Assembly (NCBI RefSeq): GCF_900187225.1 | Contig: NZ_LT906436.1 | Location: 2,729,501 to 2,793,500 of the forward strand | Source: Listeria monocytogenes | GTDB lineage: Bacteria; Bacillota; Bacilli; Lactobacillales; Listeriaceae | Direction: 5' to 3' | DNA: 64,000 bases | Part shown: one piece after another, positions 17,376-38,022 of the stretch | Numbering within the stretch: the stretch's first letter is position 1 | Layout of the letters: each line of letters opens with the position of its first letter | Made by a program: the position numbers and the translations under genes | Notes under the pieces: generated by a model | What the model was told of the DNA's origin: nothing | Seen by the model: the letters and a program-made list of their open reading frames with translations, nothing else | Databases searched by the model: none

Positions 17376-17620
17376 ACTCCCGTACTTTCCCGAATTAACA
17401 GGAAAGGGACGAGAGTTAACCGCGTTGCCACCCTTATTGGGATCTAAAAAAATCCCCAGCTTCATTTAGGTTTAACGGACCCAGCCGGAATGATTTACTC
17501 GCAAAACCATGCTTTCCACCACTCACTCCAAGATGGATTCATAAGGAAACTTCACCAGTTCACACCAACCACTGGCTCTCTTTAGAAACTCTACCTTATT
17601 ACTACTTCTTGTCTTCGCTT
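17376..17620 (-). promoter_or_regulatory. T-box riboswitch of serS (serine specifier UCC)
   Basis: Read on the minus strand, the leader contains the conserved T-box GGGTGGCAACGCGG (plus about 17419-17432), upstream GGTGTGAACTGG-type Stem I elements, and a specifier loop GAATCCATC whose UCC serine codon is at 17537-17535. Downstream, CTCTCGTCCCTTTCC pairs with GGGAAAGTACGGGAG to form the terminator (17376-17419) ending in T. Uncharged tRNA-Ser should stabilise the antiterminator and allow serS transcription. Confidence 0.92.
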
Positions 17621-17676
17621 TTCGTATTAATTTAAAGTTATTCTATCGCATATCTGCTTAAATTACAAGCAAATCT

Positions 17677-26214: not shown

Positions 26215-27882
26215 CTATCGAATAATTGGAAGGAGAATATGGGACGGGTATTCTGGGCTATGATAAATAGTCTGGTTGGCGATTTGGCTTTCAGTGGAAT
26301 TAATGAAACTATCACCTGTATTTGGGTTAGGATCAAACCTCGGAAAATTACTTGAAGATATTTCGATGCGGATTTGATGCCCTTTTTGGAAAAGATTACT
26401 TGTTGCCCAAAGATCGATAGTGTATTCATTGATGTTATTTTGCACATTAGCACCGTGTTGCTTGGCTGCCCGGATGATGCCATCTGCTAAGTTAAAAGCC
26501 GTTCCATCTGGAAACACATCTACTAATTTCGCTGTAAAATCTGTGTTAGGAGCATCTGTTTTCGCCCAAAGTTTCACTTGAATTGGTCCGGTAACTTCGA
26601 TTGCTTCTTTTAGTGGTTCTGTCGAGTAACAAAGGACGTCTTCGCGAAGTTCAATTTGTTGTTGATCATGAGGTCCATCTGCATGTAGCGCCTTATGCAA
26701 GGTTCCTCCACCATTTGATGGTACTGGATTTTCTGGATCATAGCTAAATTTTGCTTCTGAAGATGTTGCAGGCGGTGTGAATTCCGCGCTCACTTTTTCA
26801 TTTTTAAAATATAGTGGTGTCATATTTGCATTTTGCGGAGGCCAGTTTTCAGCTGTTTTCCAGTCGTTTAATCCCATCACAAAATAATTAACAGGCGCTG
26901 ATGCTGGTAAAGGCTCATTTTTCAGCCAATGATTGAACCATTCTATATGTCTAGCATGCATATTAGCCTCGCCCCATTTAGTGGCCGCCATTCCAAAATC
27001 ACGATCACCTATTATCTGAGTGAAATTAGCATGCGTCCATGGGCCAATGATGAGCTTATCTCCAAGACCGCGTAAGTGACCATTTTTAAAATTAGCGATT
27101 GTTTTATCTAAAAAGCAGTCATACAAGCCTGCTACATGGAGACCTGGTACATTAATTTTATCATAATTGCTTTTTGCATCGATTTTTCGCCAATGGTCAT
27201 GGGTTGGTTCATAATTTAATAGCTCAGAGAAATAAGGCATTTCATTTTGACCAATTGCTGGCCAGTCTTTATAAGGTTTAAATTGATACAGTGTATCTAA
27301 ATTATCTAGATTTTTCATTAATGTATTCGCTGCTTCTTCTAATTCATCGTGCGTTTTATAAGTACGGGCTAGCATATTTGGGAGCATAGACTCTAAATTC
27401 CAAGTTTCCCACATTCCAAGTTCTAAAGCGCCGTCATGATCATTGAAAACATCTGTCATACTATTTTGAGCCATAATTGGAGCAATGGCTTTCAAATGTT
27501 TGTTCCCGCTAATTGCTGCTAAAATTTGCGTATAGCCATAATAAGATAAACCAAACATGCCGACATCCCCGTTAGCATAAGGAAGGTTCGCAGCCCACTC
27601 AATCGTATCATATCCATCGTCAACTTCTGCTATGTATGGAACAAAATCTCCTTCTGACGTATATCTGCCACGAACATCTTGAACAATAACAACATACCCT
27701 TGCTCCGCCAAAATATTAGGACGAATAAAGTGAAGCCCGTATGATTTACTATAAGGTAATCTTGTAAGTAAAACTGGATATTCCCCCGCGTCTGCTGGAC
27801 GATATATATCTGCGTAAAGCGTTACACCATCGCGCATTTTAGCTGGGATATCTGTTTCAATAATTAATTGATTATGTTTCAC
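26215..27882 (-). CDS. CocE/NonD-family hydrolase (X-Pro dipeptidyl-peptidase-like)
   Basis: 555 aa from GTG 27882. The N-terminal alpha/beta-hydrolase domain begins DIPAKMRDGVTLYADIYRP; the nucleophile serine is in MFGLSYYGYTQ; a C-terminal beta-sandwich (X-Pro_dipeptidyl-peptidase C domain) follows from about residue 370. Probably an acyl or peptide hydrolase of unknown substrate, cytoplasmic (no signal). Start choice: AAAGGAG directly abuts the ATG at 27891 with no spacer, whereas it stands 9 nt before the GTG, so GTG is preferred. Both starts lie inside an exact parS site. Corresponds to lmo2755 from memory. Confidence 0.87.
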   Translation of the reverse strand: MKHNQLIIETDIPAKMRDGVTLYADIYRPADAGEYPVLLTRLPYSKSYGLHFIRPNILAEQGYVVIVQDVRGRYTSEGDFVPYIAEVDDGYDTIEWAANLPYANGDVGMFGLSYYGYTQILAAISGNKHLKAIAPIMAQNSMTDVFNDHDGALELGMWETWNLESMLPNMLARTYKTHDELEEAANTLMKNLDNLDTLYQFKPYKDWPAIGQNEMPYFSELLNYEPTHDHWRKIDAKSNYDKINVPGLHVAGLYDCFLDKTIANFKNGHLRGLGDKLIIGPWTHANFTQIIGDRDFGMAATKWGEANMHARHIEWFNHWLKNEPLPASAPVNYFVMGLNDWKTAENWPPQNANMTPLYFKNEKVSAEFTPPATSSEAKFSYDPENPVPSNGGGTLHKALHADGPHDQQQIELREDVLCYSTEPLKEAIEVTGPIQVKLWAKTDAPNTDFTAKLVDVFPDGTAFNLADGIIRAAKQHGANVQNNINEYTIDLWATSNLFQKGHQIRIEISSSNFPRFDPNPNTGDSFINSTESQIANQTIYHSPEYPSHILLPIIR

Positions 27883-34440: not shown

Positions 34441-36051
34441 TTATCTTCGCTTACTAGTTGCATAACTGTAATTGCCTTCATAAACGGTTAATTGTTTATT
34501 CTCCAGCCAAATGACTTTAGAGCATAGCTGATCAATAAAATAGCGATCGTGCGATACAGTGATAATTGTGCCGCTAAATGCCCGAAGTGCTTCTTCTAAA
34601 ATTTCACGCGAGGCGATATCTAAATGGTTAGTCGGCTCATCAAGTATCAGCGTATTCACTGGCATATTAATAAATTGCGCCAACCTAAGTCGCATACGTT
34701 CGCCGCCGCTAATATTCCCTACTTTTCGGAAAACCATCTCTCCATAAAACATGAAGCCTGCTAGCATTTGTCGTGCTTCTCCTTCTGTCACAGCAACCTT
34801 ATCCCGAAATGCATCCAGTACAGTCAGCGCTTCATTCAGCTCTTCCATTTGCTGAGAAAGCGACGCAATTTTCACACTCGCGCCAACCTTAATCATGCCA
34901 CCATCAGGAACAACTTTCCCTTCCATTATTTTAAGCAAAGTAGATTTGCCGGCGCCGTTTTCACCGATAATCGCTACTCGTTCTCCTTGCCTAATTTGCA
35001 AAGAAACATCTTGTACGATTGCTTTTTCGCTAAATGACTTGCTTAAGTTTTCCATAACCACAACTTCTTGTCCACTTCGACCAGCTTCATCGAATTGTAA
35101 TTGCATTTGTTTTTGCGTTAACACTGGACGCTTTACTTTTTCCATCCGTTCTAATGCCCGTTCCATGTTTTTCGCCCTTCGGAACATGGCATCGTTTGGC
35201 GGATTGGCTTGCATTGCCCACTGGCGCAATCGTTTGATGGCTTGCTGCATCTTTTTGATTTTCTTTTGTTGGTCTTTGTAATCTTGGAATTCCCGCAATA
35301 GCCGTTCTTCTCGTTCTTTCAAATATCCAGAAAAATTCGTATGATAAACTATTAATTCGCGGTTCTCAAGCTCCACCATTTTCTCGACTACTTCATCTAA
35401 AAAGTAGCGATCATGAGATACAACTAATACGGTTCCCGAATAATGTTGTAAAAACGCGGTCAACCATTCTACCGCCATCAAATCCAAGTGGTTCGTAGGT
35501 TCATCTAAGAGTAATAAATCTGTTTTCTGTAATAATAAATGCGCTAATGCAGCCTTCGTCTTCTCACCACCACTCAAGTCTCCCCATCGTTGCGACAGTA
35601 GCAATCCAATACCAAGCCCATTCACCACTTTATTCAAATTGGCATCCATCTCATATCCACCAAGCTCGCCAAATAATGCCATTTTATCCCCGTAACGGTT
35701 CATTAGTTTTTCGCTTGCATTCGTTGCCATTTCTGCTTCTAATGAACGCAATTCTTTTTCCATATCCTCTAACTCGCCAAAACTAGTCCGCAAATAATGT
35801 TCTACTATTATATTAGGATCCACGCTCGACAATTGCTCTAAAAGCCCAATTCTCGCTCCCTTTTTACTCGTTACAATCCCGCTATCAACTCCCTCAGTCC
35901 CTTTTAAAATTTTCAAAATGGTACTTTTCCCTTCGCCATTACGACCAATTAAACCGACGCGCTCGCCTTCTTCTAATTGAAGAGATACTTTCTCTAAAAT
36001 AATATCTCCGGTAAAACTTTTAACTACCTCATTCATTGCTACTATTGTCAT
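34441..36051 (-). CDS. ABC-F family ATPase (ribosome-associated type)
   Basis: 536 aa with two ABC domains and no membrane segment. Walker A GRNGEGKST and GENGAGKST; signatures LSGGEKTKAALA and ISGGERMRLRLA; Walker B LLLLDEPTNHLD and LILDEPTNHLD. Between them, residues about 240-310 form a basic helical linker (P-site tRNA interaction motif). ABC-F proteins act on the ribosome to relieve stalling or protect from antibiotics; this sequence alone does not show resistance. ATG after GGAGG. Corresponds to lmo2760 from memory. Confidence 0.92.
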   Translation of the reverse strand: MTIVAMNEVVKSFTGDIILEKVSLQLEEGERVGLIGRNGEGKSTILKILKGTEGVDSGIVTSKKGARIGLLEQLSSVDPNIIVEHYLRTSFGELEDMEKELRSLEAEMATNASEKLMNRYGDKMALFGELGGYEMDANLNKVVNGLGIGLLLSQRWGDLSGGEKTKAALAHLLLQKTDLLLLDEPTNHLDLMAVEWLTAFLQHYSGTVLVVSHDRYFLDEVVEKMVELENRELIVYHTNFSGYLKEREERLLREFQDYKDQQKKIKKMQQAIKRLRQWAMQANPPNDAMFRRAKNMERALERMEKVKRPVLTQKQMQLQFDEAGRSGQEVVVMENLSKSFSEKAIVQDVSLQIRQGERVAIIGENGAGKSTLLKIMEGKVVPDGGMIKVGASVKIASLSQQMEELNEALTVLDAFRDKVAVTEGEARQMLAGFMFYGEMVFRKVGNISGGERMRLRLAQFINMPVNTLILDEPTNHLDIASREILEEALRAFSGTIITVSHDRYFIDQLCSKVIWLENKQLTVYEGNYSYATSKRR

Positions 36052-36086
36052 TTTATCCTCCGTTTATCCAAGGAAGCATGGCAAAA

Positions 36087-36102
36087 TGTTTCACGTGAAA
36101 CA
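36087..36102. other. parS site (exact)
   Basis: TGTTTCACGTGAAACA, between the ABC-F gene start and the terminator of the small RNA unit. Confidence 0.9.
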
Positions 36103-36121
36103 TTTTTTCAGACAACAAAAA

Positions 36122-36145
36122 AGCGTCAGACAAGCGCCCGACGCC
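36122..36145 (-). terminator. Terminator of the small RNA unit
   Basis: GCGTC and GACGC close a GC-rich hairpin; the minus strand continues with TTTTTTGTTG. Confidence 0.75.
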
Positions 36146-36219
36146 AATTATAAGTATAATACTAATTTAGCACTATACAAATCGATTGCGTGACTCCATG
36201 CTTCTCTCATTTTTTCTAG

Positions 36220-36330
36220 TTATACAGTTTTTTGGGCAGACTTCGCCAATGTAACTGCAATAACGGAAAAAATTGCACGGACAATATACAAAAATTTAGC
36301 TATACTAGTTCGCGCATTCAAAAGAAACAT
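36220..36330 (-). CDS. 36-aa hydrophobic peptide encoded in the small RNA unit
   Basis: ATG at 36330 is preceded by AAAAGAGGTGAGATGAC, a strong site with good spacing. The product begins MFLLNARTSIAKFLYIV, continues RAIFSVIAVTLAK, and ends SAQKTV: a single hydrophobic helix (about residues 10-30) interrupted by Arg18, with basic residues at both ends. No cysteine or known processing site is seen. It could be a small membrane protein, a type I toxin-like peptide or a signal. I do not recognise a family, and translation is not proven. Confidence 0.55.
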   Translation of the reverse strand: MFLLNARTSIAKFLYIVRAIFSVIAVTLAKSAQKTV

Positions 36331-36360
36331 GTCATCTCACCTCTTTTCATTAATACATAT

Positions 36361-36389
36361 AGAATAAAGGATGCTGCCCCAAATGTCAA
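36361..36389 (-). promoter_or_regulatory. Promoter of the small RNA unit
   Basis: Minus strand: TTGACA (36384-36389), 17-bp spacer, TATTCT (36361-36366). Near-consensus sigma-A promoter. Confidence 0.8.
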
Positions 36390-36494
36390 TTGTTCTCCCA
36401 ATCACATGCACGAAACACAGCGTTTCAACTCAGAAACTTATACCATTGATATGAAACACGAACCCAAAGCACCAAAATCTATTTACCAATTAGT

Positions 36495-36540: not shown

Positions 36541-38022
<1,482 letters not shown>

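Follow-up and report, generated by a model that had tools for sequence, protein, structure and literature searches.

Whether RliI, a well-known sRNA of Listeria, is noncoding throughout or carries a small gene, and what such a gene would serve for, is the question raised by the locus described here. In the window, by which we mean the whole analysed stretch of 64,000 nucleotides of Listeria monocytogenes DNA, a preliminary description had placed a promoter, a Shine-Dalgarno (SD) sequence, an ATG, a 36-codon frame and a terminator at an RliI-like RNA, and had proposed a translated membrane peptide or a dual-function RNA. All of these signals are present (Table 1), and the identity of the RNA is confirmed by a full-length match to Rfam rliI (282.6 bits, gathering cut-off 45). 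Overlooked at that stage was the gene which follows on the minus strand: the intrinsic terminator, ending about 65 nt upstream of it, sits between the short frame and the SD sequence and start of a ribosomal protection-like ABC-F gene, which is lmo2760 by the literature. The reading to which the comparisons below lead us, and which we consider very probable, is that RliI is the leader of this ABC-F gene and that the frame encodes the leader peptide of a ribosome-mediated transcription attenuator. The anatomy alone does not prove a gene, because promoter-like and terminator-like sites occur in the region at chance level (6 versus 6.2 and 2 versus 2.4 in shuffles, respectively) and short ORFs are common, 48 of at least 20 aa overlapping the 3.5 kb around RliI.

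Table 1. Features of the RliI locus (positions are those of the window)
Feature	Position	Strand	Support or remark
Promoter TTGACA-17-TATTCT	36361..36389	minus	predicted start consistent with that of Rfam rliI at 36355
RliI RNA (Rfam RF01487), read as attenuated leader transcript	36117..36355	minus	282.6 bits
SD sequence GAGGTGAG of leader ORF	36336..36343	minus	GGTGA inside it invariant in the 21-sequence alignment
36-codon leader ORF MFLLNARTSIAKFLYIVRAIFSVIAVTLAKSAQKTV	36220..36330	minus	intact in 24/24 loci; RAxF-45 match 7.9e-6
Codons 14-22, LYIVRAIFS, conserved peptide core	36265..36291	minus	VRA codons also candidate antiterminator strand
Helix P0, 5' strand: start codon and first codons	36322..36330	minus	paired in 98.4% of cells
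Helix P0, 3' strand, directly 3' of leader stop codon; predicted to mask leader start	36198..36206	minus	
Helix P1, 5' strand	36253..36258	minus	2 pairs with both-side changes
Helix P1, 3' strand	36224..36229	minus	
Decayed copy of GGGANNNGTNTGYCC element, GGCGAAGTCTGCCC, then A6 instead of T6	36234..36247	minus	
RliI intrinsic terminator	36122..36145, to 36116 with U-tract	minus	both-side changes at 2 pairs
parS-like palindrome TGTTTCACGTGAAACA, ABC-F 5' region	36087..36102		outside the proposed mechanism
SD sequence GGAGGA of ABC-F gene	36056..36061	minus	sequence
ABC-F gene, proposed leader target	34441..36051	minus	NF000355, 468 bits versus cut-off 380

The divergent neighbour of RliI (36568-38022, plus strand) is glucosidase-like as read from its sequence. 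The exact palindrome TGTTTCACGTGAAACA, which we take to be the parS consensus, occurs 13 times in the genome, 12 of these occurrences falling within its last ~110 kb; besides the copy downstream of the RliI terminator and ahead of the ABC-F start, the window contains others at 27875, 33809 and 54556. A T-box leader lies at 17402-17624 on the minus strand (135.6 bits).

Conservation of the frame in other Listeria and its dN/dS had been suggested as checks, and both speak for a coding sequence. Matches to rliI at E <= 0.001 occur in 24 of 25 Listeria genomes, 22 of them above the gathering score, and at all 24 loci the leader frame is intact, at the same place, with an ATG start and 36-50 codons; among them are nine loci where the RNA itself scores only 44-70 bits. 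The one genome without a match, G021, is also the smallest of the set (2.1 Mb). Six residues of the peptide (L14, Y15, V17, R18, A19 and S22) are invariant in the 24 loci, with synonymous codon changes at L14, Y15, V17 and A19, so that an ORF arising by chance is ruled out by the intact frames together with the codon changes that leave these residues untouched. The ratio pN/pS is 0.40 in 15 close relatives and, over the first 24 codons of 23 sequences, 0.45, as compared with 0.87 and 0.73 in the other two frames of the latter set. In the close relatives frame +2 reaches 0.27, and these sequences alone would not decide on coding; it is therefore the deep set together with the wider family that settles the coding status. 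As judged from these alignments, the leader ORF is real and under coding constraint, and RliI is not purely noncoding.

These changes also bear on the view that RliI acts solely as a trans-acting sRNA, the ORF being conserved through RNA structure. Binding of RliI to lmo1035-1036 and to Rli51 is published, as passages of the literature on this RNA state, the RNA folds better than 200 of 200 shuffles (z -5.8), and the CGT (R18) and TCC (S22) codons never vary, as a constraint on the RNA would give. We nevertheless give this view almost no credence, in the light of amino acids unchanged in 24 sequences through synonymous changes at L14, Y15, V17 and A19, of frames that stay intact even where the rliI score falls to 44-70 bits, and of homologous ORFs found far beyond Listeria. 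The published trans activity is compatible with RliI being a leader, since a terminated leader can double as an sRNA, and a dual function is possible in this sense, which is another one than that proposed initially.

A Pfam scan of the 36-aa peptide gave no match. Against the NCBIfam model RAxF-45 (NF041642), the peptide scores 25.5 bits (E 7.9e-6), which is below the curated cut-off of 27, and the syntenic ORF of the Listeria genome G009 scores 46 bits; by sequence similarity, the RliI peptide is thus a diverged relative of RAxF-45 under the cut-off for members. RAxF-45 was found in 111 of 398 Bacilli genomes (42 of 146 genera), and 96 loci, G009 included, were examined, the roughly 22 weakest matches below the cut-off being left out. 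At all 62 loci with at least 27 bits an ABC-F-like gene lies downstream on the same strand (61 of these matches at E <= 1e-70, that of L100 at 1e-9), and the same holds for 32 of the 34 loci below 27 bits, the exceptions being L051 and L138. Between the leader ORF and the ABC-F gene, an intrinsic terminator was detected in 82 of 91 loci, compared with 0.7% of shuffled gaps, while nine relatives lack one by the rule used; this count comprises those of 95 rows that have a usable gap of 20-500 nt, L125 having been dropped as it is without a start. Based on the downstream ABC-F gene and on the terminator in the gap, the RAxF-45 'proteins', which NCBIfam lists as a protein family, are best read as ABC-F leader peptides, with RliI, sharing both the homologous peptide and the gene order, as their Listeria version. 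No paper naming RAxF-45 was retrieved in our literature search.

The wider family further allows to weigh the proposal that the ORF gives rise to a stable small membrane protein with a function of its own, RliI being an mRNA or a dual-function RNA and the position of the ABC-F gene secondary. Small membrane proteins are exemplified by Prli42, and a mean hydropathy of 1.6 over 19 residues is the threshold for a transmembrane helix. The initial description of a hydrophobic stretch is correct, the 19-residue Kyte-Doolittle maximum of the RliI peptide being 2.0, and together with the coding constraint this would suit a membrane protein. In the family, however, only 7 of 94 peptides, RliI among them, reach 1.6 (median 0.78), so that a conserved transmembrane helix, the kind of criterion that applies to Prli42, was not found among these peptides; some homologues end directly after RAIFHGMAF (26 aa), 94 of the 96 family loci lie upstream of an ABC-F gene, and the C-terminal half coincides with a nucleotide element which in some genomes is out of frame or follows the stop. 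What the homologous leader ORFs before ABC-F genes of other Bacilli retain is the position, the SD sequence, the terminator and the nucleotide element, but not the hydrophobic helix. Of the initial proposal, the coding part accordingly stands, whereas a membrane function, and with it a stable membrane peptide as the main product, was rejected on the hydropathy of the family; we consider it very unlikely, and the ORF most likely encodes a leader peptide.

How such a leader could work is suggested by its predicted fold. The RNAalifold consensus of 21 Listeria sequences comprises a helix P0 between the leader start codon and the segment that follows the leader stop, another helix joining codons 6-7 to the RA codons, helix P1, a small helix P2 at the nucleotide element, and the terminator. 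Within the consensus helices 96.1% of the cells are paired, and the covariation score is 0.186; neither value was reached by any of 500 shuffles or by any slid control, while the number of pairs with changes on both sides, five, was reached by 18 of the 500 shuffles and matched by the slid controls at -2 and -3. P0 hardly varies and shows no both-side changes, hence carries little covariation information, and its start-masking complementarity exceeds that of shuffles at 21 of 24 Listeria loci, as opposed to only 20 of 90 other leaders. As a partner of the 5' arm of the terminator, the VRA codons of the peptide core came out best in 7 of 16 sequences; chosen after that result and examined again on a mostly overlapping set of related sequences, they are among the best 5% of upstream partners at 18 of 24 loci, including the distant L020 and L022-L024, are missing as partner in L015, L017, L019 and L021, and fall just outside the top 5% in L016 and L018. 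On this modelling, we regard them as a candidate antiterminator strand.

According to the mechanism proposed here, transcription would start at about 36355 and, in unstressed cells, RNA polymerase would usually stop at the terminator (36145-36116), yielding the ~240-nt RNA catalogued as RliI, which probably is the prematurely terminated product of an attenuator, like those of rli80/hflXr and vmlR. In the resting fold, P0 would mask the leader start codon and the VRA codons would pair with codons 6-7. A ribosome translating the leader and jammed early in the ORF, the putative stall site, by a drug or another stress would open both helices, and the freed VRA codons could then pair with the 5' arm of the terminator, allowing polymerase to read through and the ABC-F ribosome-protection factor to be made. 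Part of this picture has been reported before: according to a section of the review PMC8079631, term-seq identified RliI as a putative conditional terminator acting on lmo2760, and RliI is more abundant in stationary phase. The Lmo2760 protein is listed, in a portion of PMC8407217, as newly made only during infection. The passages on RliI in open-access papers mention no RliI peptide. As far as the literature search shows, the coding leader within RliI, the assignment of RAxF-45 to ABC-F leader peptides and the element shared by these leaders are new.

This element, GGGANNNGTNTGYCC followed by T's, lies inside or just after the leader ORF of RAxF leaders. At least 9 of its 11 fixed positions are matched in all 92 non-Listeria RAxF leader windows (69 of them at 11), as compared with 4 and 7 of 92 in control windows placed in downstream genes. 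The corresponding regular expression matched at 97 of 116 loci; the 11 misses outside Listeria score 9-10 of 11, and the eight within Listeria are seven close relatives with GGTGAAGTCTGCCC and L023 with GAGGATAAGTCTGCCC. Usually the element is translated as NGI(R/S)(M/L)(P/S)FF, and a peptide motif was considered and rejected: since its codons are nearly fixed, most Listeria carry it in a shifted frame, and in the genera g114 and g89 the stop codon of the leader lies directly ahead of it, it acts as DNA or RNA. The exact pattern occurs in 143 of 398 Bacilli genomes (66 genera) and the reversed pattern, counted from the table, in 11. The L. monocytogenes genome is without an exact copy, and its 13 hits with two mismatches are at control level (15). 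An Rfam scan of 20 element loci returned no family at the element, and nothing on a shared element before resistance genes was retrieved in the literature search. A copy with two mismatches, GGGATTCGTATGTTCATTTC, stands in the leader of another resistance-type ABC-F (L375, G000:C1:936600-937200), where the ABC-F match, lmo0919 by inference, begins at 937027 and a small ATG-AAA-TTC-TAA ORF lies upstream.

In the proposed mechanism, the element would be a pause signal for RNA polymerase, giving the ribosome time to start on the short ORF. For the elemental pause, an extract of the review PMC12288461 gives the consensus G-10, Y-1 and G+1; for the NusG pause, it describes a TTNTTT motif spanning -11 to -6 and a hairpin that lies 11-12 nt before the 3' end. 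Positions G2, T11 and G12 of the element, each conserved in 92 of 92 windows, fit the former if the RNA end is at element position 11, and a T-tract at 16-21 would place a NusG pause at about 26, which is 11 nt after a possible hairpin of G1-3 with Y13-C15. It speaks against this reading that TTNTTT follows only 43 of 81 anchored copies outside Listeria; among anchored Listeria copies it follows 3 of 16. In favour of it, two copies lie 19 and ~43 nt downstream of FMN riboswitch aptamers, ahead of ribD-type genes, and for the ribD leader of B. subtilis a NusG-dependent pause is reported in the same review extract. These three points, the invariant letters, the T-tract at NusG distance in many copies and the ribD leaders, argue against the view that the element, instead of being a pause signal, binds a protein or small molecule or folds into an RNA structure that forms part of the attenuator. 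Such a role is possible, though we tend to doubt it: more positions are conserved than the pause consensus calls for (A4, G8, C14 and C15), a mini-hairpin of G1-G3 with Y13-C15 may form, and all ten examined tlrB-type leaders that encode MIIQFIRYR do without the element, though the one of B. subtilis has a proven pause. As to RliI itself, Listeria sensu stricto retains only a decayed copy; in the window the letters of this copy still fit the elemental consensus, but AAAAAAC follows in place of TTNTTT, and at most the elemental part of a pause would remain, the T-tract being replaced by A's.

Copies of the element recur before Erm, Cfr, FexA-, Mef-, Msr-, RlmA- and Mph-like genes and in the two FMN-riboswitch leaders. 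Among 30 automatically drawn sites, 13 precede ABC-F, one Cfr, one RlmA-like, four other MFS, two RibD and one GcvT genes, the rest being two of a cluster without NCBIfam match, three other and three without ORF. A second sample of 61 chosen sites in 60 loci, mostly extra copies, gave 28 ABC-F, three Cfr, three FexA-like, two Mef-like, two RlmA-like and two Erm, besides three RidA, one GcvT, 12 other and five without ORF. A longer exact form was found in at least 119 stretches over the named genomes, and the 80 classified of these comprise 30 ABC-F, 14 RlmA-like, nine Erm, nine Mef-like, three Mph-like, two CatB/Vat-like and two other MFS genes, one phosphotransferase-like fragment and 10 without ORF. 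In all these counts, a cluster is named after one searched representative: the Erm, Cfr, FexA and ABC-F models passed their cut-offs, the RlmA, Mef, Msr, Mph and CatB representatives are strong matches below theirs, and RibD, GcvT, RidA, the phosphotransferase fragment and some of the 'other MFS' were assigned by reading the sequence. Glycine-riboswitch hits at L158 and L182 were set aside, as they look like ordinary GGACAG..CTGTCC terminators. At L180, L181 and L183, the element stands beside a gene that reads as RidA-like; a 21-aa peptide, for example MKKRAIRFLSMGIGFSTAVFF, is encoded upstream and represents another type of leader. The Bacillus sRNA ncr1575 of Rfam lies within ~1.7 kb of the element at two Cfr-type loci (L198:1895-2111 and L175:806-1013).

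Upstream of the element, a short R-x-R peptide was found at 55 of 79 longer-form sites among those classified, and the distance from its stop to the element is in most cases exactly 45 nt (35 of 55). At L311 and L293, the leader peptide MTHSMRLRFPTLNQ ends at this distance and an Erm gene follows; it matches leaders of the erm(K)/erm(D) type that are listed in part of PMC4335068. In such erm(K)/erm(D) attenuators the RLR peptide ends before the element, whereas most RAxF leaders run through it. According to a passage of the same paper, the leaders of mef(E) and erm(K) share no recognisable homology apart from the peptide, and universality of the element is disfavoured by this statement.

Taken further, AMGGGANNNGTNTGYCC with its T-tract could be a common clock of inducible ribosome-drug resistance in Bacilli, a proposal in which our belief and our doubt are about equal. 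It would be a pause signal, ops-like at position 11 and, where a T-tract is present, NusG-type some 15 nt later, set between a drug-sensing leader peptide and a masking or terminating fold, and employed again upstream of ABC-F, Msr, Erm, Cfr, FexA, Mef, RlmA(II), Mph and Cat genes as well as at some FMN riboswitches; RAxF-45 would be leader peptides written across this module, and RliI a decayed copy. One shared signal before many inducible classes of resistance to ribosome drugs would make the timing of leader translation relative to transcription directly testable, and would help to spot cryptic inducible resistance genes by sequence. For RliI, a well-known Listeria sRNA is recast as a probable ABC-F attenuator with a conserved leader peptide, its earlier reported effects may partly be effects in cis, and a curated 'protein' family, RAxF-45, is given a putative function.

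With regard to known systems, the element resembles ops of E. coli, a sequence of 12 letters. At ops, the paused RNA ends in U11 and G12 is the next nucleotide, which is what one would expect from the element, while ops recruits RfaH, and the sections of PMC11001881 that deal with it draw no link to resistance-gene leaders. The tlrB/yxjB leader likewise combines a leader peptide with an RNAP pause which buys time for leader translation, as described in an excerpt of PMC6851288; its peptide is of 9 aa with RYR, and the ten examined leaders with that peptide lack GGGANNNGTNTGYCC. A precedent in Listeria is rli80-hflXr of L. monocytogenes, for which uORF attenuation of hflXr is described in part of PMC6310831: like RliI, it is a catalogued sRNA that represents a prematurely terminated leader with a short ORF and a ribosome-acting resistance factor downstream. 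For rli80, the 14-aa peptide carries an RLR motif and a response to lincomycin and erythromycin has been demonstrated (PMC6310831, same part), whereas the 36-aa peptide of RliI is without RLR, precedes an ABC-F gene, and its drug response is a proposal. The vmlR leader of B. subtilis shares with RliI the order of uORF, terminator and ABC-F gene, as given in passages of PMC9226507; its uORF has three codons (MIN) and no RAxF-type peptide, and RNAP pausing is reported there, as is a stall at the uORF start which frees the antiterminator, the switch that we infer for RliI.
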